Shown one piece after another: positions 4,441 to 28,211 of a DNA stretch of 64,000 bases (positions are counted from its first letter, which is position 1; every line of letters begins with the position of its first letter). The translations under genes and the position numbers were made by a program. Under the pieces are notes generated by a model. It worked only from the letters and a program-made list of their open reading frames with translations. It did not search any database and was not told the DNA's origin. The stretch comes from Dysidea avara (lineage: Eukaryota > Porifera > Demospongiae > Dictyoceratida > Dysideidae): positions 44,459,391 through 44,523,390 of the forward strand of contig NC_089272.1 in the NCBI RefSeq assembly GCF_963678975.1. The letters are read 5' to 3'.

Positions 4441-6650
4441 TTTAACCAGTTAAACTAGGATAATGTTACATTCAAGCATGCGTGAGTATGTTGACATGCG
4501 CAATATACTTTCCTAATTATTGTCTACACTTCTCATGTGTGCACTCTCCTCTCCAGTCATGGTGGAGCTTTTGAGGTTAGCCACTTATGTGTTACAAGAA
4601 AACGAGCATGTAGAGGTGTTAGAACATGTGGTGTAATGAATTTTGTGGCAGATACAATAGTTTGCCTTATAAAGGCATTACTCCCCTACCTGGTGATTTG
4701 AGCTAGTGCACCTGGCTCACTATTTCCTTCAGAGAGTAAAGCACCCCCAGTTTAGACTCTCCTGTCTACTTTATTAAAGAAAGCAGGACTTAGATGACTA
4801 ACAACACAACACTCACAGTTTTAGGATCGGTGCCACCAATTCTGAAAAAGATTTCAGATACGTATATCCAATTGCTGAGTTGATGGAAGAGTTCAGCATT
4901 TCAAAGATATATCAAAACACCTACAAATGTCCTTACAAGACTAGATTGCATCCACTCCTGATGCCCCACCAGTGTAGCACCCTTTCTGGTCCAAGAACCT
5001 AAACTGCATAACCTGACCAATGATCCACCAACAGTATTTATAACCAAAAATTGATTTATATACACTATTACATGCATGTGTAAATTATATCCACACACTT
5101 ACATAATTTCTGTGTACATTCTTTATGAGATTTACTATACAGGGTACTTCGTCATACATACAGTAATATCAGTAAAACTTCCATGTGTTATACAGGGATA
5201 TAATTGCACGCTTGTATAACTATACGTGTATAGACACATTCTGACATTCACAGCATCACACTTGGGAATGTTCTTTATGGTGGATGTGCAGGGAATATCC
5301 CAGAAGTTTCTTCCTTTTTCCTTTAGTATAGTTCCTGTGGCTTGGAGGGAAAAGACAGGTACCCATGCAGAACTTCTCGTGGATTCAGAGAATGCTAGAA
5401 TCCCCAAGCATTCCTACCTCCAAGTCTTCACTGTAAAACATGCCGTATACATTATGTAAGAAATAGTTAACTGTTGGAAGGGACTTATTTGAGACTTAAG
5501 AGAAGAATCCAAGGAACCCTGCATACCTACCAAAACAACCACCATCTGTTGATGGTGGAAACCCGTTCGCAACAGGGTAAGACCCACCAGCTGAGTTAAA
5601 CTGATAAGCAACATTAATTGAATACTAAGTTATGGTCTTCCAAGTACATAAAATTGGATGTGTGTGAAAGACTCCTTTTCACAAATCTGGTCACATTTGT
5701 GAGCTTGCTCTGTGCTTATCTTAGGAAACTGCCCCTCCCAAAACAAACTACAGACCAGATATCAGTTCCTGTGGTATGCGCTTGTACAAAGAGGTGTGTT
5801 AATTACTACAAAGCTCAGTTCTTTTAAAGTACATGCCCTTATCGGTTCCCTACTTCCTATTTTGTATTGGTCCTATACTTCTTCCAAATAAACTTTTAAG
5901 GCATCTTTTAGGTTAGAGATGCTTTGTAAAATGGTATTTGGGTGAGTGCTCTATTAAGATGTTGGCAATCTCTATCACAAACCACTCTACCATGGTTCAT
6001 GATAAGCTACAGTACATACAAGATTAGTCTTTCATAACTATATGACATAATTTAGGAAAACCGTCAATTTATGCACATGAACAGATTGTGAGATACGTGA
6101 ATTTAAACATTTTACTCCAGTATAGCTTTTGAAGGCAAAGTGCAGTGAGTTTGAAGTTTTCACCATGAATGTATCCAACCATATCATTTAACTCGCTTTA
6201 TTCCATAGCAAGCTAGCTACTGATATAACCATGATTTTGAGCAGCACTTTTCATGATGGAAAGTGCAACAAAAGCACATTACCATGGGTGGTGGTGGATG
6301 GGTAATTGGTAAACCAACAGAAAATGGCTCAGTAAGTCATTTGTAGTCTCCGGTCTTGATATTGGGCTCTCAAGACCACCAGTGCCACTGAAAATGAAAG
6401 AAGTGCAGATTAAAACCATCTGGACAACTGTCCAAGTCTCTAGCCCATGTTTCAGCTGGACAGTGGAATTTCAAGGTGCCAGAATGTTCCCAGTAGCTGG
6501 CACACTTCTCTAGAGTTCCATTCATTGAAAACAGACTGAGAAAACCAGTGGTACAAATATGTAGTACATTGGTATAGCTATCCATTCACAGTGAAAAGTG
6601 AACTTCACTAGTACTGGTGTGTGCAAAGGTAGATGATTTCAAAGATTTGA
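4441..6650. other. Gene-free stretch upstream of receptor gene 1
   Basis: No supportable gene. It contains the right half of a GTGACTGGATTTGC-type element at 5632-5700 and short chance ORFs on both strands (for example 5135-5407 and 6370-6585) without domains, consistent splice sites or codon pattern. The sequence is otherwise unremarkable and A+T-rich. Confidence 0.5.
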
Positions 6651-7287: not shown

Positions 7288-10200
7288 ATGGAGATCCAAC
7301 TTTTTATAGTGATTATTTGTCTTGGTGAAGCAACAATAACTGCAGGTAATAATGTGTATGTAGTAGTCAGCACTATGGTGTATATCATGCTTGTATTATG
7401 TGTCCAAACAGATCCACATTACCCCCCTGTACATATCAGGCAAAATCAAACTAACACCATCAGTGGATAGCTCTGTACACTACCATATTATCGGCTTTGA
7501 CTCTAAGTATATTAACAGCTGTATAAATACATACCTGAGGCTGGTTTTAACAGACATCTTTTCTGGGTGATGTGGCAAGCTCTAATGGTGATTTCTGGCC
7601 TTGTTAAGGGCTTGGCTTGAGGTGAATCAGTGATGCATTCTGATGGCTATAGTTGGCCAAGTGTTTTCTGTGTTGATTTTACTGAACATTAGGAGCCAGC
7701 ACACCCCTGTAATCCATCTCTTTGTGAACACTTGTGAAACTACTTTGCTCATCCAACTCATCAAATTTTCTATCTAATTTGGCAAGAAACTTTACATTTA
7801 CAAGTAGTTACTTAACAAGTACTGGAAATGGTCTGGAAGGTACAATTGATGAGTTTTTTTGTGTAAATTTCCTATACTAGGGCTGGGACATAGTTTCGGA
7901 AGTTTCAGAACCTTTGAAGTTTTTGTAACCTTTGATGGTGATTTTCCCCTCCTAAGCTTCATAACCTTGGATACTGGTTTGTCTAATCTCATTATTATTA
8001 ACCAACTTTGGAGCTTTCTTGCAAGAAGCTTCAGAGGTTAAGGTTTGACCCTCATCCCAGCCCTATTTCATATTTTTAAGCATACTCACTACTCTTGGCA
8101 AGGTATAATGGCTTGACTTCTTTAAAACTGTTTAGCTTGAAACTTCTAATGGATGACTTTCCCAAAATCCAGTCATATATACAGTATCACTTTTCAACAA
8201 TTGTATTGCTCTAAATAAATCTTATAAAATTATCAAACAAGTACACAGAAAAATTTGGAATTTTCAACTAGAGTAGGGACCATAACACATTGATAAAAAG
8301 TATTGAAATAAGCTTGAGTAGTGCACGATATTAACTCACAGTAAAACAATAAGAAGTGTTATATCCCTACTGTGCATTTCCATTATGGTATCTTGAGCAC
8401 AGTAGGGATATAATACTTCCAAATTTTTCTGTTTGAAAAGCACCTCTGATATCAAAATAGCCACTATGACAAATACGGACGATTTCCATCATGAAGGGAA
8501 GCCATCATGTTCTATCGCCAAATTGACACTTTTCGCTGTCAGCAAAGATGAATGGAACACAAAGGAGGACATTGGTAAGTCCATGAAGAATGCATTGTAC
8601 GTACTGCTGTATGCCAAAAGGCATCTGTTGGGCCAAAGCGACATCAAACAGTGAGAAAATCAAGCCCGTAGCCTTAGCCGTTATCGAGTTACACTTGTCT
8701 GAAGGCATCAGTCAGTCAGTCAGTCAGTTGCTTACTTACTCAGTCAGTAGAAAATTCCATTAAATAAATAATTTTTAAAATTCCATAGCAACTTGTTGAA
8801 TGCATTTTGGGTCGATCTGAAAGCTTGTTTGGGCTTACAGTAGTTTCACCTAACCAATACTGCCTGATCATAGTTTAGGGAAATTGAGGCTGTTTTTTGG
8901 ATGATATTATTTCGTAGGCCACACCTACTCCTTTATGGTCCCTACTATACACTAATATCATAGTGTATGATACATGTACACCTTTCAACCTACATATGAA
9001 ATACTTTGCACTCCATAATAATGATCGGTGTTGTTATTGTTCTTTAGCTGTGATCATCACTAATGGTCCACAAGACACTACAGTGTGCGTAAATCAATTT
9101 GCTAGCATTTCATGTGGATTTACTGGAGCTGATCCTAACCTGGTAGTGCCCAACTGGCATATCATGAAGAGGACAAAAACTGGAGCATATAAGTTTTATC
9201 GTGAAACTATCAGTGTTGGATCTGACAGTAATATTGATGGGCTAAAGTGGATAGCTGATCCACTTAATGGAAACAATAGTGTGTTGAGAGTTGGTCCAGT
9301 GGATAAGGCTGATGACCAGTCATCATATCAGTGTAGTTTTGGCAGTGTAGACAGTAGTATTGGAGTATTGACAGTATTAAGTGAGTTATTGCTGTAGGTA
9401 CTCTATCATCCAGAGGAGATGGGTCATCATTTGGGTTAGAATAAAAAAAAATCTTTTCAGACCAGTTACAACATATTAAATATGTAGTCTTGCATGGCCA
9501 GACTGCTTTTTTTTCCTTTTAAAGTGATGATTGGTGGAAAAAAGCTCTGGTTTTCAGTTTTCAGAGATATTGATTGGCCAGGATGGAAAATAAAAGAAGT
9601 AGCTATTGATGAAGTGCAAATCACTATATGATTGCTGGTCTAACTAGTGTGCTAGAAACTATAAGACCCTCAAGCTCCAAACCAGTATCTAACCATTGAA
9701 CCAGCTAGCTATGTATAGGGCCTTTAGTTTGTACCTCATTTTGTTACTGAAGCAGCCTCTATTATACTGAAGTAATAAAGTGAAGAAAAAAGTTAAAGCT
9801 GAACCTAACCCTAATGCTATCTAAAATTTCAAGTATGTTGGCAATGCATGTTCAGGTACTGCTTTATTTCTGTGTTCAGTTATAGGCACTCATTGCTTTG
9901 TAAGTGATAGTATAGTGACTCAGCTAGACGACTGATGATATTTCTGTATGTAACTGACCATCATACATCCAATGATACATGATATAATGTGTACCTGTAG
10001 TGAGCTCAGTGTTAACTTATTGGCCAAGGAGGATAATAATATATTTTATATTTATCATGTATACTATACTAGTATATCTAGTAATAACACTGAAGGTGAT
10101 TATTGACTGTGTTATGATAGCAGGTGTTATAAGTGAAATATATTCTCTTTTGTGCAGGTTATACACTTTCAGTTTCTATATTATGCACAACACTTAACCA

Positions 10201-13200
10201 GCTGCCAATGAATATGATGTTACATGTAATGTTGGCAAAGACGTAACCTGTATGCATTTGTGTAGAACATGCATAACTCAATTTTTTGCTAGCTATACAG
10301 TTTGCAACAATATACAGTAAACCATATTTTACTCATTCAGTGTGTACATACGTACATGTAATGACAACACTTTGTTAAAATAAAGCACCGAACATATGGA
10401 ATAGTCATTAGTAGACTTTAACTTGGTGTTATTCATTAACTACAGTTTTTATTTTAATTTAATATTCAATGAAATTAAGCTATGTAAGCTATATTCTAAT
10501 ATATCATTGTAAAATTATTATTTTACAGGGAATCCATTATAATTACTGTATGTATTGAAATAATTATAATTGCAATTAACAAATCTAAATACATGTCATT
10601 GGAGAGTTTAATACTGTAGTTTATAGTACAATTATTCCCATATGCTCCTAATAGACTATATATAGGATATCTGTTATTACAACAAAATAAGTTGATGGTT
10701 TCAGTTAAATTATGATATCCATTGTGAAGAGGTGACATATACCTGTAATTTAAATTATTATCTGACAGTACAGTATATAGGTGAAATGTTATACTCTTAT
10801 AGAGCAGACACTGGTTGTAGATTTTGTAGATATGATATGTAGCTATATTGCTCCGATGAATAATTTATGAAATACAATATGCATTGCAGATATACCAGTT
10901 ATTACTGGAATTTCAGTGATTCAAACTAACACTGCCATTGTTATCTCATGGACCAGTGTTCATGCAGTGACCTACAGAGTATCACTGGCTGGTGGTGGAG
11001 TGACAACATCAATCATCTTCACTAATAACACTCAGTACACTTTTCATGGAATTATTATGAACAAACGATATAGGATAACTGTCATTCCCATAAACTGGAT
11101 ATGTCAAGGAGGAGGGATGGTGTTAGCATGGTTACCTCACACAGGTATTTGTGCTAGAAGTATATAAGGATCATAATTACAGTGTGTATTGCATAACTTA
11201 CTGTAATGTGGAATATCCTCAGAATTACATTTATATAAATGGTTGCAAAATCAAAGTAAGCAGCCAAGATTATCAATAAAATTTAATATCAGTACACAAA
11301 TTGTAATAATACAACCTCACAGTGTTGTTATAACAATGTAAACCTCTCCTTCATGGTTGTTGTTCAATTGAAGAAACTAGTATTAGATCTCATGACAAGT
11401 TTTGTTGAGGTGATTGGACAATTAGTTAAATACATTGAATTGACTTTATTTAGATGAACTTTTATGGCTGAAGAGTTCCTTCAAATTCGCTATGCAGATT
11501 GCCAAACTGAAAGCATGCCAAAATGATTCCATTTAGTGCAGGGTACATGTACAGTATATGTACATCCATGGCCATGGATGCTTATGCTGAAAATTACTTA
11601 CAGAAAATAATTACATTGCACTAACTTCTTGAGTTTGTCAAACACTCCACAATGGCGGATCCAAGATGGGTATTTGGGGCAAATGCCCCCCCCCCTACCT
11701 TGTGGAGGAGCCATACTTCTGATTAAAATACTAAACTTTATGCCAGGCCAAGATCAGCTTATAAAACTCACAAAATTATGCACATTTTACCAGCATTTAA
11801 TACGAATTCACCTGAAACTAAAGCGAACCAAAATCAAACTAACTATGAAATTGCCACCCAGCACCCTCGTGCATACTAAGCGCCTCTAAAAATAATCATC
11901 GTGTTGCTGTGTTTAAGACATTCAGAGCCTTTTAAACAGCTTTAAAGACTTTGCAGCCATCTGCAAAGGCCAAAACAGTAAAAATCAACAGTGAAATACT
12001 ACTAAGAGGTGTATTATATGCTGTTTCAAAAATGTAGCAACTAACAAGAGGATCTGGCTCTCCCTAACCAGCTACAACTTGCCTATTTGTGCCCCTCCTC
12101 TTGCCAGGTCCTGGATCCGCCCCTGCTCCATCATCATTGAATCCACAATTCGTGCTTTTTCTCTCACCAATTCCTGTTTTATTAGGTTAAGGCTGCAGCA
12201 CAAGTTGCTGTCAGACCTTCAGTGCTAGTCAGGGGCGGAGAACAGTACTCAAAAGTGGGGGGCAAGTCATCCACCAGACACCACCACACTCACCACTTTA
12301 TCCAACCCAGTACACGGTCCAGTTATTATCAACATGCTTTTTTTCCAAGAACAATCAAAGATTGGAACAGCTTGCCAGTATCTGTCATAGAATCAGAAAA
12401 CATAGATACATTTACTAATTACTTATTGTCTATCTAATTGTTTGCTGTATATCTTATGTGTATGTGTGATTTCTTTGGGGTGTTGATCGCCCCCTGGGCG
12501 CATCGGCAATTGCCGTCTGCCCAGTAACAAAAAAAATAAATTAAATAAAATAAGTCATGTGGGTTGACTGTAAGTTACAAAGTGTTTTAAAATCATTAAC
12601 TGTACCTTAGTGTGCTTTGCACCCTAGCATGCAAAACATGCCAATACTAAGGAGGTCTGGGGACATACCCCCACAGGAAAATTTTGAGATTTAGATGCTT
12701 TGAGATTGAATCTGAGAGCAGTTTTAGTGGAATGTGTGTACTTGAATAGGATACTTCTATGCAATGACTATCATTGAGTCACTGTACTATTAGATACATC
12801 AGTAAATGAAGGCATTTCAGATAGACTCATGCTGTTGATTATACACATATACATATAAGTGTTAGTGAAGACATATTGAATTAATTGCATATAGCAGGGC
12901 AAACTTATGATTCTGCTGAATGTTCTATTAGAGTAGTTAGGTGACTGCTCTATTAGAGTATATCGATCTCGTGCACTCCCAGTACTGATTCATGCAGTGT
13001 TCCATGCTTGCATAACCTTTAGCACAAATCCCAGTAAATAAAGACAAAGTAAGTTGGCTAATGACTAAAATAGTTGCTTTACTTTGGCAACTGGGCATTG
13101 GAAAAAGTGGGGGGGGGGGGGGGGGGGGGGGAGTTGCCCCTTCTATTTCTCCGCCCCTAGTTCTAGTTACTTTTTGCTGTCAGACCTTCAGTGCTGGTCA

Positions 13201-16200
13201 CTGTAAAGCTAATATACAAGCTGGGAAAATGCAACAATATTTACAATCCTTTGAACCCTGTACAGTAAAAAAATATATTAAAATTAATTTGCAATGTATA
13301 CAGTAGCAACACATTGTGTTAATATCACTCACTTATGTACATTATACATAGACGTGTACAGTGGCGGATACAGGGGAGCTGCAATGGTTTCCATGGAAAC
13401 CCCTTTGAAAATACCGCACGCCCAAATTAATTTATGGCTCATTGTGTGGATAATAAAATCACCACGAGTTATACATAGTGTATACTTTTTGTACTGGTGA
13501 AACTTCATACTTTTGCTTTGAAATTATCATTATGGCGTTTACAGCAGGTAGTGATATTTTTTTTGTTGTTTTGGTCTTTGACTTAGAGGTAGGCTGAAGT
13601 TGAGTGGAACCTGAAACCCCCTTTCAAAATTTCTAAATCCACCACTGCTGTTAGTGCTGTACCATGTGACCTGATTTTGGAATATCAATCTTAATGTCAC
13701 ATTTTATAGTTCATATGTAACTGGATTTGACAAATGAAAACCAGGCTTCCACACACATCCAGATTTGTGACTTCAAAGAACTATAACTCAATGTAAAAAT
13801 AAGCTATCACCTTCAAATTTTGGCCTGTTATTGCAAATGCAATTAGAGGAATTGTAGGTCAATAGCTTGCTGACTGGGTATGTTACAAGTGGTTAAAGTC
13901 GAAGAATTGGATGTGTGTTGAAGCCTAGTTTTGTCAAATCTGGTCACATATATTGGACTAGATAGGGAATTTCAAGCTATCAATCAGCTTCACAGCAATT
14001 TAAGTCAATAATCAGAATAACACAAAATAAAATAGACCAGAAACAGAATCGGTACCTTGAATTGCAACAAACATGGTGGAAATGATCCAACAAGTCTAAT
14101 GCTGTCTTGTTGGCAGTAAATTTGATTATTTCATGCTTGACATTAAGACTGATTCACCAGAATTTGGTCAATATTTCCTCTGTGATTGTAAATAATTATG
14201 TAATGTTTCCCCCTAAATTAATCAAGCAGTGAACAGAACAACTTCAACTGTGGCAGTAACACCAACTATGAAAGGAAATGGACATGGTAAGGACATATCA
14301 CATGTGACAGTACAAATAAACGTTTTTTTGCCATTAAAACTTGTGATGTAATATGTCATTAATGCAGTGTACACATGCAAATACAAACTGAGTATAGTGT
14401 ACAATACTCTATTGTAACTCTCACTACATGCAATACAGTGTATGTGCAGAATATACAGATCAATCCATACTACCCAGGCAAAGTCATTTATAATAATTAT
14501 AGCAAATAGTTTATCTCACTACCACTGCATGCATATGATGGTAACTTTTTGGTAAATTAGAATTGCTACAGTGTATATTAGGCTGTTTACATAGGCTTGC
14601 GCCAATTATGCCAGCATAATTTTGAGCATAATAGGCTAACAAAGGCATCAAGCACAATGCCAGCATAATAGGACAATTTTCAAGATTTTAGCTAGCTAAA
14701 TGTGCAATGTGCATGCCAAAACAGCAAAACATGAACACACTACACCTTAATACTGCATTTAATATCAAGACAATGTGTAATGTTATTCTGATTATTCACA
14801 GTGACACTTCGAGGAAATAAGATTGACATACTCTAATAGAGCAGTCACTTACTCTTCTGCAGTCAAGAAAGGTGATATGTGACCCGGTCTGGAGTCTTAT
14901 AGCCTTTTCAATTGCATATACTTGGCATCCTGTAACTTGACTTGTGAATGTGGTGTCACCCTGAACTGTGGTCCCCTTATATCCCTAACAAAGCACTATG
15001 GCTTGGTGAAATATGAGGAGTTATGATTAGTCAAACTTGACAACTTGGAATGGCTATAAGACCCATTTCGCAGACCGGGTCATATCTACTCTAATAAAAC
15101 AGCCAAACTCTAGAGCATAATCTTGATTTTGAAAGTATTACTTTGAGCATAATAGGCTAGATTTTTGAGCACTGTCATGATAGGCTATTTTCAAAGCATA
15201 ATTGTCTCAAGCTAACTCACAAACATTGTAGTGGAGGGTAGGGAGTGAAGACAATGGACTGGTAATAGTGATAAATAATGTTTATGAACATTCAGAGATT
15301 TCGAGATAGTTGAATTTATAAGGAACACATGTATTACACTGTTTAGACTATAATGTACGCATCAAGCTATTAGAAGTTGAATGACATGTAGTAGGCTAAC
15401 AGAAAATTATGTGTTGTTTGGTTGAAGAGATCTATTCCCAGGTGACTAGGGCTGTTATGTGATATAGTGTGTTATGTGATGGTTCTATATTATGTGGAAT
15501 TTTTCAATCCTTTTATGCGAAGTATGTAATGTTATTGATCCTCTGTGCAACTGACAAAAATGCACCTATTGTTACCATACTTATTTCAGGAAAATATTTA
15601 GGCTACAGCCTGAGAACATTATTCGGCATGACATTATTCGATTCAATTACACTGCATTCAAATATTAATTGGCACTGTAGTAACCTGTGACCAGATGGAT
15701 GAAGCCAACTTAGGAGTTTGAGAGTGGCATATTTATACTCCATTGTGCTTTACCTTACTATCCAAAAACAAACAGAGATTTAACTACTTATTCATGCTTA
15801 AAAAATAGTCGATAATTGGTTGTTTTGTTCACAACTATTAATTTTGAATAGTAAAATTTACTATTCATTTCAGCACTACACTGCAACATGGGTTTAAAAA
15901 GCAGCTCACAAAAGTAAATGTCCTAGTTATGAAACTAAAAAAATAAAACCAATGAGTGTTAGTGTACATTGTTGCACGATGTATTGTGTGTGGGAGGAGA
16001 ACCCAAATTCAAGTCACATACCCTATAATTGCTGTAGTTCTGGTTCTAACTAGTCATTGTGCCAAACTTTGTTTTTCCTTTCACATTATGTTAGAAATAG
16101 GCCTGAGTCAAATGTGCTCAAAATTTTGCCCAAAATGCTTTAAGGAAATTCCCAAAATTTTCACCTATTATGCTCATTAAGTGTTACCATTATGTTTCCT

Positions 16201-16909
16201 AGGTTAACAACATTTCTTGCAATTATCTTGAAACATTTTGATCAGTGAACGCTCTATTAGAATATTTCACTACAAAATGACTGTTCTATTAGAGAGTATT
16301 GATCTAAAGAGCTTATAATATATACAGTACATCTGAGTGCTGTATTGTAGTTTGCAGCTTCCATTGACTTTTCTATCAGAGAGTATCAATCTATTCTCAT
16401 GGAATTAAGTTCCATAGTTTGAAATATCCACCTAGTATGCTAGCATTATGCTGGCATAGCACTCCAGCCTATCATGCTTTTTATTATGCTGGCATATTTG
16501 ACACAGGGCTAGTTAGAAAGTACATATCTGTAACAAATGATGTTTTAGCTATATATAATTTTACTGTGCACTAGGTCGTAGGCATGGAAAGAAAGCAGCA
16601 ATTATCATTACAACTATTGGACTGTTGATACTATTAATCATGGCAGCTATCATTGTTTTGGTCTTGGTTAAATATCGATACAAGCTTCATTTTGGAAATT
16701 GCAGTGAGCTAAAGAGAATACAAAAATCCATTGTGTAATTATGACATTGTTGTTTTCCTGTAGAACCTAAACATCTTGCTAATCAGAATCGTCGTAATCC
16801 AGATACTGTAACAGTAATGTCTTCAAATTATGTTCCCATAAGTACCAGTAACCCTGCAGTACCACAACAAGATACTTACCCTGATTGTGATGGTGTACAT
16901 GGGGACTAA
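7288..16909 (+). CDS. Receptor gene 1: Ig + FN3 single-pass membrane protein, ITIM-like tail
   Basis: Six coding exons: 7288-7345, 9048-9380, 10890-11144, 14227-14286, 16575-16703 and 16764-16909; total 326 aa. Residues 1-19 are a signal peptide (MEIQLFIVIICLGEATITA). Residues about 20-130 form an Ig-like domain, with B-strand Cys in SISCGF, Trp in PNWHI and the F-strand DDQSSYQC. Residues 131-215 are FN3-like (ISWTS, TYRVSL, YRITVIP). A Thr-rich stalk follows, then a TM helix at about 243-267 and a 59-residue tail with SNYVPI (Y301), which fits the ITIM consensus. All introns are phase 1 with GT-AG ends. Exon 4 has a tandem AAGCAG acceptor. AATAAA signals lie at 17078-17087. Its tandem paralogue is at 22.3-28.2 kb. 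Role inferred: cell-surface recognition or adhesion; ligand unknown. The exon model is read by eye, without transcript support. Confidence 0.82.
8253..8950 (+). mobile_element. AGTAGGGACC-TIR element, copy A (in intron 1 of receptor gene 1)
   Basis: The left end carries TTTTCAACTAGAGTAGGGAC. The right end is ATGGTCCCTACTATAC, whose inverse is GTATAGTAGGGACCAT. An internal, truncated fold-back contains GTGTTATATCCCTACTGTGC and its inverse. Downstream are the landmarks AGTCCATGAAGAATGCATTG and a short CAGT microsatellite (8708-8729), also present in the copies at 34.97-36.03 and 54.42-55.54 kb. The overlapping small ORFs (8433-8654 and the minus-strand 8505-8708) recur as fragments in other copies but are not open throughout, so this is non-autonomous. 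Confidence 0.8.
11650..12125. mobile_element. CAGGGGCGGATCCAG-type MITE with 5-bp target duplication
   Basis: Left end CAATGGCGGATCCAAGATGG; the inverse of the right end is CAGGGGCGGATCCAGGACC. It is flanked by a perfect direct CTCCA (11645-11649 and 12126-12130). No coding capacity. It lies in the FN3-stalk intron of receptor gene 1. Terminal CAGGGGCG with a 5-bp duplication fits a hAT5-like class; the superfamily is inferred, not proven. Confidence 0.8.
12271..12551 (+). mobile_element. 5'-truncated non-LTR retrotransposon (LINE) 3' end with 7-bp target duplication
   Basis: The reading frame gives FFPRTIKDWNSLPVSVIES, the C-terminal signature of CR1/Jockey/L2-type reverse-transcriptase polyproteins. 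It then reaches a stop, a short 3' UTR and an A/TAAA-rich tail. The insertion is bracketed by AAGTCAT at 12264-12270 and 12552-12558, the expected product of target-primed reverse transcription. It is nested inside the CAGGGGCGG-ended element. Confidence 0.8.
13109..13131 (+). repeat. Poly-G run (23 G)
   Basis: An uninterrupted run of 23 G (13109-13131), inside an element in an intron of receptor gene 1. On the transcribed strand it could form a G-quadruplex in the pre-mRNA. It could also be partly a sequencing-length artefact. Confidence 0.9.
13359..13647. mobile_element. CAGTGGCGGAT MITE (289 bp), copy 1
   Basis: Ends are CAGTGGCGGATACAGGGG and the inverse CAGTGGTGGATTTAGAAAT. The interior, including GTTTCCATGGAAACCCCTTT and AAACTTCATACTTTTGCTTT, is the reverse complement of the element at 23417-23724, so both belong to one family. 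No clear target duplication remains here. It sits in the FN3-stalk intron of receptor gene 1. Confidence 0.8.
13713..13951. mobile_element. GTGACTGGATTTG-type fold-back MITE
   Basis: The left arm ATATGTAACTGGATTTGACA pairs with the right arm TTGTCAAATCTGGTCACATA. Both arms also carry CACACACATCC and its inverse GGATGTGTGT. It lies directly downstream of a partial left end of another family (GTGACCTGATTTTGGAATAT at 13677). Intronic in receptor gene 1. Confidence 0.75.
14592..15215. mobile_element. AGGCTTGCGCCAATTATGCC element with nested fold-back MITE
   Basis: Left end TAGGCTTGCGCCAATTATGC; the inverse of the right end reads TAGCTTGAGACAATTATGCT. The sub-terminal sequence repeats GAGCATAATAGGCT many times in both orientations. 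A separate fold-back element (14875-15086) and CTCTAATAGAG motifs are embedded. Relatives are at 31985-33477 and 52625-53072. Intronic in receptor gene 1. Confidence 0.6.
14875..15086. mobile_element. GTGACCCGGTCTG fold-back MITE, copy 1
   Basis: Left arm ATATGTGACCCGGTCTGGAG; the inverse of the right arm is ATATGACCCGGTCTGCGAAA. The arms continue through TTATAGCC(A/T)TTCCAA-like sequence. The same family is nearly intact at 32041-32281. Inserted in the AGGCTTGCGCC element. Confidence 0.8.
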
Positions 16910-19500
16910 TCCAGTTTGTGTGATAGTTTAATGTGAACCAAGATGATTAGAATACACAGTTTAATATACGTATGTGATGTTATACTTTAATATTACTGGA
17001 TATTGTCTAGTGTTACAGATAATATTGTTGTTGTATATTTATCATGTGAATTGCTGAGTTCTCTGCATCACAACTCAAATAAATAAAAGCTGTATCTTGT
17101 ATAATATCATTGTATTAAAACAAATTGTCTCATATAAAAATTTTGTGTTATACACTGTACACCCGTATGCACTCGAATCATTCAAAGTTTAGCAACGTGA
17201 TACAAACCTCCAGCTTTATGTTCTAACAGGGTCAAAAAATTATGACTGGGGTTTTCTTTTATGTTACTACGTTTGACTGTACACAGGGGCGTACCCAGGA
17301 TTTTCCAAGTGGGTTTCCAAATTACGTATTTTGGTAGTGATAATAAGTTATAGCTTTGCACTCAGGGTAAAGCCCCAGCCATCAGTGCATTATAAACATT
17401 AAAATTCTTCACACTTTGCTAGATTTATGATTTATATGTGACTGCTCTATTAGAGTATTTCAATCTTTATCAATCTGTGTCCTATATGTATTCTCCTTAA
17501 TTCACTTTTGAGGCATCAATACATAAATTCCTCTTACACTGTAGCTATACTGTCCTATCCTATTTCCATTATTTCTGTGCTAGCATTACTGCTGGAAGCC
17601 TATACAAACTAAAATTTCAGAAAGGGATCTCTGGAACCCCAGGGAGCCTCATAAATACACCTCTGGTACAAGCACCTTATGAAATCAGAATATCACAATT
17701 ATCTTTAAAATATAAGGTGTACATTGTGTGAATATACAGTGTACACTGTTCACACCACATTGATGTGCAATTGCTCTGTAACAGTTTGTAAGCCACAACT
17801 GTCAACTTTGTCAACTTTAGATGACTTAGTAACTAAACAATCGCATCTCTTTATTTGTTTGCCTAAGGGTTTCTGTTTCTCTTGTACATTTCTCAACAGG
17901 TGTATACATAAGTACAGGCATAGATCACATCACCAAAGCTTGATCACATGCACAGAAGAAGCTTGTAGAGTTTCAATTATTCTATGTATTACTGCCACTT
18001 CCTCACACAGAACATTACAGCTGCAACCAGGTTTCATAACTGTTAAAAATTTCCCATTTACTTTGTCATACATAATTATATCTGTTAGACTGTGCGTTGA
18101 TCCAGGTATATTTGCTTGTATTATAAAAATTATAATAAAGCGCATATTAAGCATACGCACTTAGAGTATGTAGCTATATCTATTTATCACCTTTCTTTTT
18201 ATTGCATGGAGTTAATGAGTGCACATAGGTACACAAGAATTATAACACACTGAGGATACATGCAATTTTAGATGAATTCACACTAATAATGGACTAATAA
18301 TAATAGTCATGAGAGTATGTTTTGTTACGAAGTTATGATTAGTGACATATTTGCATCTTGAGCTATTAGTATACACTGATTGGTCAATTTTAGTTTTATC
18401 TCTGCATCAGTAATATAATTACATATCCTGTATGTGTGTCACTTGTAGCTAATACTGTGATAATTTGAGACATTCTATAATGCATAACAGATTGAACTTA
18501 ATGACACGGTGCAATGAGATGTAAAAGTCTAGTCCTATATTTCTTGCAATATTATGTATTCCTCTTTTAGAGGTAAATAATTATGTAGCTTTGCAAGAGC
18601 CAGACTTTGTTCTTATTTTGGAGATTTTTTCTATCCTTAATTTGGGGAATTTGTTAAGAGCATTTCCTTTGTAGACAAATTCACAATCATTGGAACACAG
18701 TACTTATAGAAAAATTTGGAGCCTCATATTGAGGTTTTAACTGTGTCTACAATTGACTGGCTATCAATGATATAATTATGTAGTGATTGCATCTACAGTA
18801 TATGTTGCAAGCAATGTAAATCTAGAATCATTGACAATAATTCATTTTTGTATGAATGCTTATAACCTCAGGTATATGTTTATAGATAAGATACAGTATT
18901 ATATACAGTACATGGCTACACATGGGTTACGTAGAATTCAAGCCTTTCAACAATGATGGTGTGGTATTATTGAAGAATGGCCACGTATGTGAATAGAAAC
19001 ATTTTAAGGAGGTTACTTGGTGAGGTTTTACCATAATACTGTGTGAAGGTACAGAATTCAAACAAATACGTATAGCTAATGAATGATCAATGAAGGCTGA
19101 ATTATGTTGATTCTGATGTCTGATCCTGACATATTATTTTTGCCATAGTTCTAAGTTCACATTGCACACAGACTTACTCTCACAGTAAATTTAAGAGGCA
19201 GATAAATGTGTGCCTGATTTGAACACACATATGTTACTAACATAATACCAAGAGTTTAATATAATGTGGGAAGGCCAATAGATAACACTAACAGCTCACC
19301 ATAGCCTAGGTGGTAGCTTTAATCATTACATGCAGATTTTTTTTTGACAACAGTCACATTAACTATCTTGCACACATAAACAACTGAACTACAGTTGTCT
19401 GAAATGTGTTGAGGAGCATTCTTTAGTCTATTTACTGTAAATAGAAAAATAGGGTTGAATGCAGCTGTACTTGTGTCAATCATCATGAACCACACTAGGT
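16910..19500. other. Intergenic stretch between the two receptor genes
   Basis: No supportable gene beyond the 3' UTR of receptor gene 1. It contains the MITE at 17284-17665. A 206-nt exon-like segment (17900-18105) is bounded by TTTCTCAACAG and CCAG/GTATAT but has no recognised domain. The rest is A+T-rich non-coding sequence. Confidence 0.5.
17284..17665. mobile_element. CAGGGGCGTACCCAGG MITE with 5-bp target duplication
   Basis: Left end CAGGGGCGTACCCAGGATTT; the inverse of the right end begins CAGAGGTGTATTTATGAGGC. It is flanked by a perfect GTACA direct repeat (17279-17283 and 17666-17670). A GACTGCTCTATTAGAGTATT motif lies inside. Same broad type as 30804-31074 and 40401-40720. Confidence 0.8.
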
Positions 19501-19539
19501 GTTCCATATTAAGAAAAAATACAAACTCTCTAATAGGAT

Positions 19540-19965
19540 GCATGCGAACACAAAGCAGCCTTCTAGGCTTTTGAGTGTATCTTAAAGCTTTCTGAAGTGT
19601 TATTAAGGCTGAACAATAACCAGTAAAGTATTTTGAAATCAGTACATGATGCATGTACTTCACCTGCTGCGGGTGGCAAAAAGGCATATCTTGGGCTGAC
19701 ACAATGCTCAACAGTGAAGAACTCAATGTTGTAGCCTTAAAGACAGTAGAGTTATGCTTGGCTGGAGATAGCAGAAAATTCATTTAAACCAGAAGTTTTA
19801 TAATTACACAGAAACTTATTGGAATGGTTTGGAATCTCTCAGCAGAAATTTTTGGGCTTGATTATAACTAATCAATAGCTACTGTCACGCTGTGGAAAAT
19901 GAGGTTAGGTTAGGGTGATACTTTGGCTAGAAAAGCTCAAACCTTTATGATCCCTACTATACAGT
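19540..19965 (+). mobile_element. AGTAGGGACC-TIR element, diverged 3' portion
   Basis: The block around AAAAGGCATATCTTGGGCTG, the following AACAGTGAAGAA and TAGCCTTAAAGACAG match 8610-8690 of copy A with many substitutions. The terminal ATGATCCCTACTATAC at about 19948-19963 matches the family right end. The minus-strand ORF 19319-19783 (154 aa) overlaps it. It partly resembles the minus-strand ORF of copy A, so that ORF is transposon-derived rather than a gene. Confidence 0.6.
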
Positions 19966-20639
19966 ATGATAGTTGATAAAAGGTAGTTTGTTATTACAGT
20001 AGTTACTACATACCTTCAGTTTTAATTTCACATCATGTTTCAGTTGTCACTATTATCAAGAGTACATAATACCTAAATATATATATTATGAACTCTTGCT
20101 ATTATTATAAGCAGTTAGTTACATTTAAGTTGTCCTTCTGAAGGGCTGATACTTAGTAGCTACATATTAAGGGCTCCAAGAAGGTATGTATAATTCATGT
20201 GTATATGGGTGTATTAAAGAGAGAAATTCAGAGAATGCATGCAAGTATGTGTATAATACTGTAATGATTACAAAACCATGGTTTGCTATTATTATTATTA
20301 TATATGTGAACCCCTGATATCTATTCTATTAGTACACGTTATATAGTATTGTCAACTTGAAAAGGCATAACACAACTAACCTGTTATAATAGCCTAGAAG
20401 AAGGACATACGGTAGGCAGATTGCTTTTATAAGTACTAATTTGTTCAGATAAACTCAACATGTTAATGTATATCTCATAATTCAACAGGCCAAGTGGGGG
20501 GTGGGGGTGGGGGAAATTTTAGCAATGAAGATTAATTAACTGTGGAATCTGAAGCATACACCATAATTATGAATATTATTTATGAAGGTCTGTGCCATCA
20601 GGATATTAATTGTCATACATAATCAAGGAGCTCAGAGGT

Positions 20640-20910
20640 AGTATTTTAAATGATTTGTCATTAAATAAAAATAAAAAGATGCTCTTCTATTAGAGTGATT
20701 GACTGCTCTATAAGAGTGGTTAACTACTCTAATAGTGTATCTCAATCTTTTGGTACAAACATCATAATCGGATGGTTGCAGGTTCAAGGCAGTCATGGAT
20801 TTTTTCTTCTTTCTCAAACATACTTTCTGTAACAACTTTAAACAGTCTGTAGGACTCCTAGCTACTTGTGCTGTAAAGTCTTATTAAATAAATTAACTAA
20901 ATAAATTGTC
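20640..20910 (+). repeat. Dispersed repeat with CTCTATTAGAG motifs and a box-B-like site
   Basis: Three motif copies (20690-20745) are followed by GATGGTTGCAGGTTCAAGGC (20771-20790), which resembles a pol III B box, and by a TTATTAAATAAATTAACTAA-type tail. This layout suggests a tRNA-related SINE or LINE 3' end. No matching A box is convincing, so the class is uncertain. Confidence 0.35.
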
Positions 20911-21179
20911 CAATATAGTGGGGGTCATCCTATCTCTCTCTCATTTCTACTGCCTATACTATTTTATAGAGTTCCCAGATTATGGAATATGTTCATTCAC
21001 AATAATAATAATAATAGCTTACCTTTGCCAGACTATTATTTGTTTTTCAATACAATTGAATGTAAAGAACTAGTTACAGTACTGATAGTGGAATGGAAAA
21101 GCAAAAAATTTTGAAAAAATAAGTTCACTTTATGACAAAAACACTAAAGTTTTTGTGCAAGTTGCGTATGTGACACTAT

Positions 21180-22025
21180 GTAAAAGATTTGAGATGTGGT
21201 GCTATGTCAAGACTATTGCATATTAAGAACAAGTTTGGTAATTTTTACGATACACTATACTGCAGTAGCTGGTCAGGAAGCCAGCCATACAATGTATCCA
21301 GATTTTTATTTGCTTTAAATAGCATAAAGTTTTCAACATATTACAGGTACAATAAAGCTCTTTCAAAATGTAGTAAAATATGCTGCTTTAATTACTCTTC
21401 AGAATGTACCACGATTTCAGTATACAAGTGCAGGAACAACCCAATATTATGTTGCACATTGATGGCTTTGTACAATTGCAACCCTCTGTGCTTCCAACCT
21501 ACTCACACCTTCCTTGATCAGTTTTTGGGTCTGATCAGGCTGAAACTTTTAGTAAGTTTACTATTGAGTGTTTCGACTTCCATATACGTTAAATTTTGTA
21601 TTGCTTTTATTTGTTGGGTCCAATGTGCATGATACAATTGGTGATTTTAATGGCACCTTATCTAATATGACATGGTATGAACCAAGAGGATGCTGTACCT
21701 AGTTTAGTATTTTTATCAAAAAGTGAACATTTGTTTTGCTTAGCTGCTCCACTATGTCATTTTAAAAAGAATTTTACTTTTGATGATAATTGTAATTCTC
21801 ATCTTTTATGTCCTTGTTGTACTGTAATTGTGCTAAACTTTCTCTCACTTGTAATTATCTTTTAATTAAGCTACACTGTAAGTAATTGTTATGCATTTGG
21901 TGATTTGTCCCTCTGATTCACTTTTGTCATTACATTGTACTTAAAGTAGCTTCAGACTCTTCATAACCCACCGCTTGTATGTGTCTATCTCAGTATCTGT
22001 ATATAAAGCAATAAAAATAAAAACA
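21180..22025 (+). repeat. Unclassified repeat-like block with A-rich tail
   Basis: Holds ORFs of 147 aa (21189-21632) and 62 aa (21677-21865) that are Cys- and Leu-rich with no recognised domain. It ends in TATATAAAGCAATAAAAATA, like a LINE 3' tail. The upstream region of receptor gene 1 lacks this block, so it may be an insertion in the duplicated copy. It may also simply be non-coding. Confidence 0.25.
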
Positions 22026-22283
22026 TATCCGAACAGTGAGTTGATATAGATGTTGATATAGATATAGTGTACATGATTTAGATATAGCTGGCAGTTTTGT
22101 GATGGATATAGGGAAATGACAAAATTGCTGTTTCATATATGTATATATTATATATTAGCTGCATCTGTTTTTACGTAAGCCTTAAAATGTGTATCTTTAC
22201 ATGTATACGTACTGTACATACAGTAGCTGTGACATATGCATAATTACTATGTGTGTGTATTTTCTACTTGCTGAAGAAAAGTA

Positions 22284-25200
22284 ATGATGAAGATCCCACT
22301 TTTTACAGTGACTGCTTACTTCAGTGAAGTAGTAATAGCAGGTAATAACAAAATATTAATATGTATGGTTAGTACTGTACTTTGAATGGTGTACGGTAGT
22401 AGGCTGCACTAAAATAATTATATGCATGCGTAGTTCATGTAACTACTAAGTCATAATGTGACTTTATCACCACTCCTGTAGCATTTATTACACTATATGA
22501 AATGTATCCTCTGTAATAAAATTTATAATAAATATTATGTGACCAAATTTTGGAAAATCACCCTTATAGTCATGCTCGAAACAATTAGAATATTTGAAAC
22601 TAGCATGGTGCTGTTAATAGCAGAAAACAATTTCAAATATTTCTAATATTTTCTTGTAATTGATATCTATGGTTTATTCTACCCTTAGCTAAATGGTAGG
22701 AATATAATGCTGTGTTTCGCTAAATAGTGTATTTAATGTGTTGAATGTGCCCAAAAGGGTAAATTCAGTCATTTATAGTCTGTGATGGTTTGCCAAAATA
22801 TAACTTCTTAATTGTCAAACACTCTTTAAGTTTGGAAACAACATTATATAGCTAATAATAGAAATCACAATATAACTTTATTTGGACATACTGTAATTGT
22901 TATGATAATCAGTGTTTTTATTCTTAAGCTGTGATCATCACTAATGATCCACGAGACACTACAGTGTGTGCAAATCAGTTTGTTAACTTTTCATGTGGAT
23001 TTACTGGAGCTGATCCTAACTTGGTAGTGCCCAACTGGCGTATCATTAAGAGGATCAGAAATGGAACATCTAAAGTTTATGATGTAACTATCAGTGGAAT
23101 TGGACCGAATGGTAGTACAATGACAAATGGATTGGTGTGGATAGCTGATCCACTTAATGGAAACAATAGTGTGTTAAGAGTTGGTCCAGTGGATAAGGCT
23201 GATGACCAGACATCATATCAGTGTATTTTTCCCAGTGTACACAGTAGTATTGGAATACTGACAGTGTTAAGTGAGTTACTGTGATAGGTATATACTCAAA
23301 CTCATTATTTGGGTAGGAACAACACTAATCATTAACAGATGTGTGAACTGCATGTACGCCTGCAGCTACTGCATATCATATAGCCAGACTCTAGAGTGCA
23401 TAATACAGTATGTAGGCAGTGGCAAATCTAGAAATTTTCAGAGGGGTTTCAGGTTGAGGAAGTTTCCAATAACTGTCAGGTACTGATCCAGACTTTTTGA
23501 AACTTCAGCCTAGTTTTAAATTGAAGCCCCAAAAAAACGTAACTACCTGCTGTTGAACATCATAAATAGTGATTTCAAAGGCAAAAGTATGAAGTTTGGC
23601 CAGTAGAAAAGTCCTAATGTAATACACTATGTTAGTCACATGAATCGTAAATAAATTTGGGACGCGTGCTATTTTCAGAGGGGTTTCAGCTGAAACCATT
23701 GCAACCCCCCTGTATCTGCCACTGGTAGGTATACATCTGTACCTGTTAAATCTTATGAACTTATCTGTTATGAAATACTTGCAGGTACTGATACAACCTA
23801 CAGTATGCTCACACGTGTCTTGTGTCTTTAATCCCATGGGTAGCTAATACACTGTATAATATACATACTCCCTTGTACGCTATAGCATTGCATGTATAGC
23901 ATTGCATGCTTGCTGCCCAAATCACACCTACAGCACATGCTTTGTTATTAAGTACACAGTAAAAAAGGTGGGTGGAAATACAGGTAACTCTTTTGTAAGT
24001 AGAAGTAGCTAAAAGCTAAGTAACATAAATCTATAAAATAAGCAATGCCAATATAGTTAAGTATGTATAAATCTGACAAAGTAGTGAAATGTATATATGT
24101 GGCCGGGCCTGTGAAAATAGGGCATGTGGGCACATAAAAATTGCCTACTTTTTTCACGCTTTGTTGTATTATAACTTTGTATTCCATGACTCTGTAGCCA
24201 TGAAGTTTTCAGCATGTCTTAAACATTTAGTTAGCTTTACAATACAAGTTACAGAATGGAAATAGTCTACGTATTCCAGTGCTGAGATATGACATGTTAC
24301 GTGACGGGGTGTAATTTGACATAATATTATTCAAGAAAGGGTGGTACTTAGCCATAATTATGTGTTTACCCATGGGTGGATCCAGGGAAGGTTCAAACGG
24401 TTTCATGGAGCCCCCTTTTGGAAAAGCAACAATATACAGTAATTTGATGAGCTTTCAACTAGTTTCCTTACATTTAGTAAACTTACCAGTTAAGAATACT
24501 TATTGGAAGACTCCTGTTGTTCGTTCTGTATTTACTGCAAAATCTTGTAAGTACTACCTCATTATCTTCATTTGTAACAAGGGCCTATAAAACAATTATT
24601 ATTGTTTTGGTGCTTTATAGTTGTATTTCTGAAGCCCTAAATGGTAAGATTTAACAGTGAAACATTGCAGGGAGTGATTAGTTACCATGAAATATTGGCT
24701 AGACTGAAACTGCAATTAGCTATGTAATATAATTCAGAGTGTAACGCCTCTTTTTAAATGCCTCTTGGTACTTGGGTTTAGTGAGAAGATAGTCACCATG
24801 TATACAGATATAGTTGTGTACAGTTACAACGTTGAAGGTGAGATTGAAGGTGGTTATTTCTGTGTTATGATAACTGGCGTCATAAGTGAAATATATTCCC
24901 AATTGTGCAGTTTACACCATTTCAATTCAGTTTTGAAAACTTAAAACTGATTATGAACATGATTAGTGTTGTTGTAAAGGAACAATATGTATATGTGCAC
25001 TATTGCACTTGTGTAGGACACGCATGGCTAAACTGTGTGCTACTAGCTATACAGTTCACAAAAACAGTAGACTCCTATTGAAAATAAATATTGTAGTTGA
25101 TGAATGACACCAAGTAAAAGTCTTTAATAAGTAACACAATAGACTAGTTCATAATGACTAGTACTTTATCTCTGCAAATACGTAAAGTGAAATTTTCAGG

Positions 25201-28200
25201 ATATAAATCTACAAATTTATCTACAAGTTTGTAATAATTTGTCAACATGGCTGGAATATGGCACATTTGTATATTTTAATTGTGAAAAACAGAGTTAATC
25301 CCTTATACAGTGAAATCTCACATTTGTGACATTTAAACTTCTTGAATCTCAAGGAAATTTCATAATTTGTTATGCATGGAACCTCAGGAAACATTTTTTG
25401 CAAAGTGATACACAATGTGATAGTACCAATAGAGCACTTTGTGTGGGATATGAGTACCGGTATGTTATTACGTATTCTATTCTAAGCCATGGAAAGTCAT
25501 CAGTTTGTTTGCTTGCCTGTACTATAGTTATTTGTTCATTCACTGTGCACATAACAAAGCCATATAAGATTTTTGCTTGTGGTAGATCTCACTTTAAACA
25601 TGTAGTTGTGTAGTGCCTGAACTGCAATATCTAAGTTTTATTAAAGTCTGAGAAATGTAGCTTTGACTAAGTGAAGACTGAAACCTATGTAAGGATGACC
25701 AATGATTATCAAGGTGGTTTTCCAGGTCAGTTTATATGCATGGTAAGGAATACTTGCAAGTGTCCAGATTAAACAGATGTCCTTTTTTTGTCCTGATTAA
25801 CAAGTTCCACTGTATAATCCATAAGGAAAAATCGTACACATACGTACTGCGTACACTATATAGAAATATTGTAATGCAAAACACATACATGCTATAAGAG
25901 AGTTTATTGGAGTCTTGACAGTTATGGTATAGTTGTTATTTAATATACAATAAATAAACTGTATTAATGATATCTGTATTAATGATATCTGTTTAAGATT
26001 TTTCATGAACAAATAGTTTAACTTTGTATACTGTATTGTTTATTATGAAGAGGTGTTTATAGCTGATTATCATGGTACTTTAATAGAGCAGTCACAGGTG
26101 CTTGTAGTTAGTGTATAATGACTGCATGTGATAAATCTATATTTTAAATGTATTTATGCATTGCAGATATACCAATTCTCACTGGCATTTCAGTGATCCA
26201 TGCTAACACAGCCATCACTATCTCATGGACCAGTGTTTATGCAATGTCATACAGGGTATCACTGACTAGTCTGACTTATGGTGGTGATGGTGTGACAACA
26301 TCAACCATTTTCACTAATAAAACCCGGCACACATTTTTTGGAATAACCAGCAATTTACCATATAGGATAAGCGTTGTTCCTAGAAACTTGATATGCCGAG
26401 GAGAAGGAATGAGGCTTCATTGGTCAGCTGATACAGGTAATTTTGCTATGCATTGAAACATGCAGTATAACTGTAGGAAGGGTTGTAGCCTCAAAGAATG
26501 GGTTAAATAGTTGTGAAAACTAAAGGTAGTACTCATGAGGATGGGATTGGCAGTGGATATACAGTAGTGTCATAGGGAAGATTAAAAAGAGTTTTGCCCT
26601 ATTATTGCCTGTACTAGAGGAAAGCATAGGGGTGGCTTTTCAAAATTAGTAGTCATGTGGAGACCATGACAGAAACTTTCCACTGAAATGACTCCAGTTA
26701 GTGCGGGGTAAGTACAGGTGCAATGATACATGGACAATTAATGATGTAAAATTGCATAGTGATACATGGTGAAAAGCAAACATTAAACTTGTAATGTAGT
26801 TGGTCAAGTGGTTGTGCATACAGCATACATGTCACAATGGATTTGACCAAAAAAAATCATACTGTTCAGTGTAGATGTATATAAACTAAATTTAGTATGT
26901 AAATTGGTCAACCATTTTATAATTTTATAATGTTTCAGAAGTGACCAAAACAACAACTTCTACTATGAGTAGTCAATTGGTGACACCAACCATGACAAGA
27001 AATGGACATGGTGAGGACAATACATGTACGTAGCAATGTGACAGCGCAATAAACTCTCTTCTCATGTCATAATAAAAAAAATCTGTTTTAGTTGTAATAC
27101 TTGTGTGGGAGTTGTACTTGTACATGTACCTCCCTCATGCTTTAATGGTGGAAATGATGTGTTGTATGAATAGAGAGATCTAAACTGTGACAGTGTTAGG
27201 ATCTCTTCCATAGACTAGAGATAAGCCTACTCCACATTTTTCTTTCCAGCACGGTATTTTTTATCAGCATTAATGTGACTGTGTTTCAAGCTCAAATCAC
27301 AGGTAATTGTTGTGTTGCAATATGTAGAGACTGCTCTATTAGAGTATCTCAATCTCCATTTGCTCTTCAAATACAGCATTATTATAGCAAAGAGCAACAA
27401 CAACACAGTGTGATTATACTATTAGAGTGCATTATCTTGATGTTATTTTCAAAACAATCAAATATTTTTGTCTACTTTGCAAAATGCATCAAATGCCAGC
27501 ATAATCACTAATGTATAACTGGACTGTTCCTAGAATTGCATATAAAATGGACTAAGAAAAAATAGCTCATTAATATCTAGCTTGCAAATAATTTATGTTT
27601 TTGTACAGCTAAAAATGAAACCAACGAAATTAACCGCAATAAAACTTTGATGTATTATGTGTAAGGGAGAACTCAATTCAAGTCACAAATGTACAAACTA
27701 TTGTGTAACAAAACAACAAAAGCTGCCAAAAGAAAAATAATAAAGTAGTTCTGGTCCTATTCATTGTGTTAAATTTAAATTTGTTTTACCTACATCAGTC
27801 TATGTTAGATTGCAATGTAGTGATAGAATATTTCCCATAATAATATTATATTGTATGATTTTACTGTGCACTAGGTGGTAGGCACTTAAATGATGGAAAG
27901 AAAATAGCAATTATCATTACAATTATTGGACTGTCGATACTATTAATCATGGCCGCTATCATTATTTCAGTCTTGGTTAAATATCGATACAAGCTTCGAT
28001 TTGGAAATTACAGTGAGTTGAAGAGTACAAATACATTGTGTAATTTTAACATTGTTGTTTGTCTGTAGGGCTTAAACACCTTGCTAATCAGAATCATTGT
28101 AATCCAGATACTGTAACAGTAATGTCTTCAGATTATGTTGCTATGAGTACCTGTAACCCTGCAGTACCACAAGATACACACCCTGATCATGGTGGTGTAC

Positions 28201-28211
28201 ATGAGGACTAA
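22284..28211 (+). CDS. Receptor gene 2: Ig + FN3 single-pass membrane protein, YxxM tail
   Basis: Tandem paralogue of receptor gene 1. Exons: 22284-22341, 22929-23270, 26167-26436, 26939-27010, 27875-28012 and 28069-28211; 340 aa. Signal peptide 1-19 (MMKIPLFTVTAYFSEVVIA). The Ig domain, about 20-133, has NFSCGF, PNWRI and DDQTSYQC. The FN3 domain spans 134-223 and is five residues longer than in gene 1 (SLTYGGDG loop). A Thr/Ser stalk follows, then a TM helix at about 258-282. The tail carries SDYVAM (Y316), a YxxM motif of the kind bound by PI3K p85 SH2 domains, in place of SNYVPI. All introns are phase 1. A second ATG directly follows the first. No canonical AATAAA is seen just downstream. 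Function inferred as surface recognition; ligand unknown. Confidence 0.82.
22538..22776. mobile_element. GTGACCAAATTTTGGAAAAT MITE, copy 1 (right end eroded)
   Basis: Left end ATGTGACCAAATTTTGGAAA, then TAGTCATGCTCGAAACAATT and ACTAGCATGGTGCTGTTAAT. The right end, AGGGTAAATTCAGTCA, is degraded compared with 63592-63811, where the inverse terminus is clear. Lies in intron 1 of receptor gene 2. Confidence 0.7.
23417..23724. mobile_element. CAGTGGCGGAT MITE, copy 2, with 5-bp target duplication
   Basis: Ends are CAGTGGCAAATCTAGAAATT and the inverse CAGTGGCAGATACAGGGGGG. The body is the reverse complement of 13359-13647. Flanked by perfect GTAGG (23412-23416 and 23725-23729). Lies in intron 2 of receptor gene 2. 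The minus-strand ORF 23505-23837 over it is not a gene. Confidence 0.85.
24362..24430. mobile_element. Single GGTGGATCCAGGG terminus
   Basis: ATGGGTGGATCCAGGGAAGG and the following GGAGCCCCCTTTTGGAAAA look like one end of the CAGGGGCGGATCCAG type. No opposite end was found nearby, so this is a fragment. Intron 2 of receptor gene 2. Confidence 0.4.
25308..25812. mobile_element. Possible pogo/Tigger-like non-autonomous element (505 bp)
   Basis: Left end TA/CAGTGAAATCTCACATTTG and right end TAACAAGTTCCACTG/TA. The inverted ends (CAGTGAAA and CAGTGGAA) and TA flanks match the form of pogo-like elements. The 95-aa ORF inside (25326-25613) shows no transposase motif. Intron 2 of receptor gene 2. 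Confidence 0.5.

Follow-up and report, generated by a model that had tools for sequence, protein, structure and literature searches.

The window (the whole stretch of 64,000 nucleotides that was analysed) contains two tandem genes on the plus strand, gene A at positions 7288–16909 and gene B at 22284–28211, each with six exons that join into a single open frame (325 and 340 amino acids, respectively). The exons of both genes encode, in the same order, a signal peptide, a predicted Ig domain, a predicted FN3 domain, a stalk, a transmembrane segment and a tail, with canonical AG/GT splice sites and all five introns in phase 1. A sequence-only reading of this stretch had described two six-exon tandem paralogues with the same domain order, and both models hold in their splice sites, phases and open frames. 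The exons, in window positions, are as follows.

Gene A exon 1, 7288..7345, plus strand: signal peptide; ATG start, donor gtaata, phase 1
Gene A exon 2, 9048..9380, plus strand: Ig; phase 1-1, C22/W36/C95 as in 16 other family Ig exons, Pfam Ig_3 match weak
Gene A exon 3, 10890..11144, plus strand: FN3; phase 1-1, fn3 match at E=0.00055, under the cut-off
Gene A exon 4, 14230..14286, plus strand: stalk; splice sites, homologous to gene B exon 4
Gene A exon 5, 16575..16703, plus strand: transmembrane; hydrophobic helix, phase 1-1, homologues in relatives
Gene A exon 6, 16764..16909, plus strand: tail; SSNYVPI and stop
Gene B exon 1, 22284..22341, plus strand: signal peptide
Gene B exon 2, 22929..23270, plus strand: Ig
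Gene B exon 3, 26167..26436, plus strand: FN3
Gene B exon 4, 26939..27010, plus strand: stalk
Gene B exon 5, 27875..28012, plus strand: transmembrane
Gene B exon 6, 28069..28211, plus strand: tail; SSDYVAM and stop

Exon 4 of gene A has a second possible acceptor, at 14227 as against 14230, by which one residue is gained or lost. When the two genes are aligned, their exon blocks match at 75–86% and most intron sequence finds no match, which rules out a chance likeness. For the full-length proteins dN and dS come to 0.17 and 0.26; the 18 codons of the signal peptide are the sole part with a ratio above 1 (dN 0.36, dS 0.19), and the ratio for the Ig exon is about 0.6. Both genes retain their open frames, splice sites, Ig cysteines and tail tyrosine. 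Their transmembrane segments are uncharged and their tails are similar, with the motif MSSNYVPIS in gene A and MSSDYVAMS in gene B; the difference between SNYVPI and SDYVAM to which the sequence-only reading had drawn attention is present, at the same position of both tails. At 14.1 bits, where the cut-off is 21.1, the transmembrane and tail part of gene A weakly matches Pfam's GAPT (GRB2-binding adapter) family. When both strands of the window were searched with profiles, no family exons beyond those of A and B were found.

The window has other features as well. On the minus strand at 37480–38945, two overlapping open frames resemble a laccase-like multicopper oxidase (Cu-oxidase, E 9.5e-20; Cu-oxidase_3, E 5.4e-33). 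A single open frame of 1235 amino acids occupies 58437–62144 on the plus strand; by eye its N-terminal half is beta-helix-like and hydrophobic stretches lie near its C-terminal end, and its match to Pfam Beta_helix falls slightly under the cut-off. The style of the genes suggests a sponge, and the laccase-like gene and this frame are in keeping with that. At 49022–49746 there is a tandem repeat with units of about 114–127 bp, whose minus strand is open across several copies.

Domain assignment

Profile comparison supports an FN3 domain for the family. The Pfam fn3 model matched all 15 aligned family FN3 exons at E<=0.05, those of A and B included (best 4.1e-8), and a family FN3 profile finds the FN3 domains of RPTPs and of fibronectin. 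The gene A exon scored 20.5 bits against a curated cut-off of 25, fn3 was absent from the matches in a Pfam scan of the full-length gene B protein, and AlphaFold gave the gene B FN3 exon by itself a pLDDT of 41. The Ig assignment leans mainly on a Cys/Trp/Tyr-x-Cys pattern that is invariant in the 17 aligned Ig exons. Pfam Ig_3 matched 6 of these 17 at E<=0.05 (the gene A exon at 17.1 bits, with the cut-off at 30), and a PDB search with the family Ig profile returned a single weak match (E 0.033). The Ig alignment omits L010 and L015 (stops), L012 (split) and the truncated L027 and L028; the FN3 alignment omits L010, L013, L014, L022 and L025, in which the exon has a stop, is incomplete or is absent, and L027 and L028, for which none was found.

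A large family on one chromosome

We searched the genome with gene B and with the Ig exon of a relative; the second search gave 75 matches at E<=0.001, which came to 71 Ig-exon loci once four split ones had been merged. Locus counts are lower bounds, since only the best candidates were scored, and they include broken copies. Of the at least 71 loci genome-wide, 70 lie on one 65-Mb chromosome, C1. The array around the window (C1 43.5–44.9 Mb, 1.4 Mb) has at least 24 of them, A and B included, with 23 on the same strand. A search for more tandem copies, which the sequence-only reading had asked for, has therefore yielded at least 22 further Ig-exon loci in this array. The remaining loci are distributed as follows.

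C1 57.99–58.41 Mb: 10 Ig-exon loci
C1 24.6–26.5 Mb: 10 Ig-exon loci
C1 48.1–49.4 Mb: 14 Ig-exon loci
C1 47.2–47.8 Mb: 5 Ig-exon loci
C1 37.2–37.3 Mb: 2 Ig-exon loci
C1 39.4–43.0 Mb: 4 Ig-exon loci
C1 1.6 Mb: 1 Ig-exon locus
C6: 1 Ig-exon locus

The 19 loci at C1 47–49 Mb are weak matches (29–40% identity). The relatives fetched repeat the exon plan and the intron phase of A and B. Broken copies include L010, L015 and L032, which have stops, L013 and L025, whose FN3 exon has one, and L033, with a stop in its transmembrane exon and a shifted tail frame. L027 and L028 (C1 44.577 and 44.889 Mb) are a closely similar pair whose Ig exon is truncated and for which 10 kb of sequence showed no FN3 exon. 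Genes A and B are more than a pair and form part of a large clustered family.

As a separate observation, L018 has long low-complexity repeats coding for VLLVL and VPVVP (about 1100–1650 and 3900–5560) in the stretch that separates its Ig exon from its FN3 exon.

The tail tyrosine in the array

We compared 25 tails from the array: those of A and B, 12 from ten-kb stretches around receptor loci and 11 fetched later. Twenty such stretches were examined, and a recognisable tail exon was absent from the other eight. A tail candidate from L010 and terminal-exon candidates from L009, L018, L022 and L023 were dropped, having no homology by eye.

The tail tyrosine is kept in 24 of the 25; the exception is L032, a copy with a stop, which has histidine. 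At +3 from these 24 tyrosines we found V in 14, I in 4, M in 4, L in 1 and S in 1. Because the tyrosine is kept in 24/25 and V, I, L or M stands at +3 in 23/24, the tails look like one motif class with interchangeable hydrophobic residues at +3. Random variation at this tail position, which the sequence-only reading had named as evidence against its proposal, is not seen.

The ITIM form [SIVL]xYxx[IVL] occurs at 4 of the 24 array tyrosines (A, L029, L030 and L038) and at 5 of the 122 tyrosines of the wider tail set described below; it fits A and not B, and it is not a conserved feature of the tails. YxxM, counted as a motif only, occurs in gene B and not in gene A, at 4 of the 24 array tyrosines (B, L027, L028 and the broken L033) and at 24 of the 122. 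A tree of 19 array tails resolves into three groups, namely nine long tails with V (six later-found long tails were left out), short tails with I and in one case S, and the group of A and B, with M in B, L027, L028, L032 and L033 and I in A alone. Support for the A/B group is low (85/76), as it is inside the group, so the tree does not fix the direction of the change between I and M. The +3 codons are one base apart, ATA in A and ATG in B. Most relatives have a proline at -2; gene A does not, and its fit to the ITIM form goes together with that absence.

A repeated tail module

Related tails lie on C1 at 58.2–58.4 Mb (minus strand), 47.3–47.9, 36.98–37.1 and 40.1–40.3 Mb, and on C8 at 17.1 Mb. 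Of 46 tail matches, we read those at C1 36.98–37.10 Mb (L053–L055), C1 40.1–40.3 Mb (L056 and L057), C8 17.1 Mb (L058) and in the 47 and 58 Mb regions. All told, the tail set falls into eight groups, of which three belong to the window's array, and has 44 tails and 122 tyrosines with a +3 residue. Its recurring module is approximately KM-x-x-x-P-x-Y-x-x-hydrophobic, with up to ten copies per exon. Proline stands at -2 of 108 of the 122 tyrosines, V, I, L or M at +3 of 86, and H at +3 of 22 (from a terminal NPAYLTH-like unit), and NPxY occurs at 46; the counts are not independent of one another, as many of the 44 tails are close copies.

Long tails follow the pattern ..DTIKMQSSPAYVPV..VPQYDTV..NPAYLTH, and some tails repeat a unit like KMDTNPSYAIMDKDTI many times. 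In L053 (C1:36984780-36985330) a single tail frame has ten tyrosines in tandem KMDxNPxYxxM-like units, many of which combine an NPxY-like with a YxxM-like motif. Set against this pattern, each of A and B has a single, worn copy of a widespread module. Pfam scans of three tails gave sub-cut-off matches only and no family, and no PDB sequence matched the tail repeat at E<=1. One distant tail was followed upstream: within 6 kb of the 37 Mb tail exon (L053) there are two FN3 exons (L059 read), and the same 6 kb gave no Ig match.

Evolutionary rates

Tails have changed less than Ig exons. Among eight long-tail genes, dN is 0.037 for the tail exon and 0.107 for the Ig exon, and dS is 0.079 [0.041–0.136] and 0.196 [0.127–0.273], respectively; dS is 0.148 for FN3 (6 genes) and 0.169 for the transmembrane exon, both overlapping tail and Ig. 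This hints at homogenisation of the tails by gene conversion and does not prove it. Variation in the Ig exon is concentrated at alignment columns of about 43–66, 89–91 and 101–112. Mean dN/dS is below 1 for the Ig, FN3, transmembrane and tail exons in both the long-tail and the short-tail groups (L015 was kept in these counts, its stop codon skipped), so that none of the four exon classes gives a sign of positive selection by a mean above 1. Constraint on the tails of A and B is weak, given a tail dN/dS of 0.90 in the short-tail group (5 tails, L011 included) and a dN of 0.128 against a dS of 0.142 between the A and B tails.

Candidate readers of the tail

The genome encodes an SHP-type protein (SH2-SH2-phosphatase); in the PDB it matches PTPN11 (SHP-2) chains best, at E 7.5e-179. 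A partial PI3K p85 iSH2 exon exceeded the cut-off; 1 of 14 control genomes matched, under the cut-off. At E<=1e-5 there were 110 SH2 matches and 5 PTB matches, each with 0/14 control genomes. With these proteins, inhibitory and activating outputs are possible in principle, as is a single shared output.

Many of the SH2 matches lie in large arrays, at C13 16.66–17.59, C12 22.8–23.0, C5 29.6–30.1 and C11 22.1–22.9 Mb, and those on C13 and C12 include several open frames of about 400 amino acids.

Interpretation

We consider it moderately probable that A and B belong to a clustered family of type I single-pass receptors that share one tyrosine docking tail. The Ig domain would bind a partner on another cell or on a microbe, on receptor clustering the tail tyrosine would be phosphorylated by a Src-type kinase, and SH2 proteins tolerant of a hydrophobic +3 residue (SHP-type, p85 or PLC-gamma type) would dock there. 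Members of the array would differ in the target recognised and not in the sign of the signal. A and B form a sublineage in which a single clear copy of the module is left in the tail, without P at -2, so that their I/M difference would be affinity tuning at most.

The main rival to docking is an endocytic or adhesive use, which we judge unlikely though worth weighing: the tyrosine motifs would be trafficking signals that set receptor turnover, with plain cell adhesion as one version. YxxPhi motifs bind the AP-2 adaptor unphosphorylated and permit the interchange of V, I, L and M at +3 that we observe, and NPxY, present at 46/122 tyrosines in a genome with PTB domains, binds PTB-type endocytic adaptors and works unphosphorylated; the YVKM motif of CTLA-4 is an example with both uses. 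In favour of the adhesive version, an excerpted review links sponge Ig-superfamily proteins mainly to adhesion (PMC11999971). Up to ten modules in one exon, as in L053, however look less like a sorting signal than like a set of phosphotyrosine docking sites, and the many SH2 readers encoded also argue against trafficking.

A broader proposal, which we put forward only tentatively, is that the C1 clusters are an undescribed recognition superfamily of an early-branching animal, possibly for allorecognition, in which repeated P-x-Y-x-x-hydrophobic tails (NPxY fused with YxxM/V/I) would be read by the expanded SH2 arrays, the tails being homogenised and the Ig domains diverging. It is improbable that A and B represent a side branch in decay, with tail function being lost and the motif difference due to drift. 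The short-tail dN/dS of 0.90 is in keeping with decay, as are relatives such as L027/L028, for which no FN3 was found, and L032/L033, with stops or a shifted frame and, in L032, no tyrosine; the frames, splice sites, Ig cysteines and tyrosine of A and B are nevertheless intact, and their Ig exons have a dN/dS of about 0.6.

Least probable of all, and rejected on the family-wide comparison of tails, is the proposal of the sequence-only reading that A is inhibitory and B activating in a paired receptor system: A fits S-x-Y-x-x-I, B fits Y-x-x-M and the genome encodes both SHP-type and p85 proteins, but V, I, L and M interchange at +3 throughout the array, the two +3 codons are one base apart, A is the sole I in an otherwise-M group, its ITIM fit accompanies a missing P at -2, both transmembrane segments are uncharged and hence do not suggest an ITAM adaptor as partner, and CTLA-4 (YVKM) shows that YxxM need not be activating. 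Of that reading, the tandem Ig–FN3 single-pass receptors are supported, as members of a clustered family with a kept tail tyrosine, and the genome encodes an SHP-type phosphatase and a p85 iSH2 exon; tails of opposite sign are not supported. Since both belong to a large family with a single kind of tail tyrosine signal, A and B probably do not work as an on/off pair.

Comparison with known receptor families

Vertebrate KIR and LILR are likewise tandem Ig receptors with tyrosine tails. Their activating partners have a short tail and a charged transmembrane residue that binds an ITAM adaptor, a combination not found in A or B, whose transmembrane segments, unlike those of such partners, lack a charged residue. 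The tail of CTLA-4 has YVKM, and those of ErbB3 and IRS-1 have repeated YxxM; hydrophobic-flanked YxxM is alike here and repeated in some relatives, but the proteins are otherwise different.

In the excerpted reports, the Alr complex of Hydractinia comprises clustered single-pass Ig-superfamily receptors at no fewer than 41 loci, pseudogenes among them (PMC11067881), and tyrosine motifs are reported for Alr candidates (PMC12065747). The family described here is similar in being a clustered single-pass family, of predicted Ig-superfamily type, with broken copies and tyrosine motifs, but, as far as those descriptions go, it is set apart by one predicted Ig domain with the usual cysteines, one FN3 domain and a one-exon P-x-Y-x-x-hydrophobic tail. 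The FcoR receptors of Botryllus are described in the same excerpt as a cluster of type I receptors with 53 loci so far, whose ectodomain consists of a V-Ig, a sushi and two C2-Ig domains and whose tails have ITIM, hemITAM and core Y-x-x-I/L/V motifs (PMC12065747). Clustered type I receptors with tyrosine-motif tails are common to both, but by that description the Ig–FN3 ectodomain, the P usually at -2 and the M allowed at +3 distinguish the present family. The layout of clustered type I Ig-superfamily receptors seen in Alr and FcoR is found here (at least 24 loci in 1.4 Mb; 70/71 on C1), and on this comparison the family resembles both in layout and not in domains.

Table 1 of an excerpted study counts 637 I-set and 564 V-set genes in Dysidea avara (PMC12909245). 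Since many Ig-domain genes are thus on record for one sponge, abundance by itself is not new; in that excerpt we saw domain counts only and no Ig–FN3 array or tail module. We recognised no earlier account of the Ig–FN3 family in excerpts of the literature searched, which was mostly open-access and did not include bioRxiv. The cluster may be a recognition system.

To our knowledge, the genes for self/non-self recognition in sponges are unsettled. With all but one of the loci found on a single chromosome, a tyrosine module common to its tails, and an SHP-type protein, a p85 exon and many SH2 domains encoded in the same genome, the family offers a concrete locus for testing. It would extend the pattern seen in Hydractinia and Botryllus, in which unrelated receptors converge on tyrosine-motif signalling.
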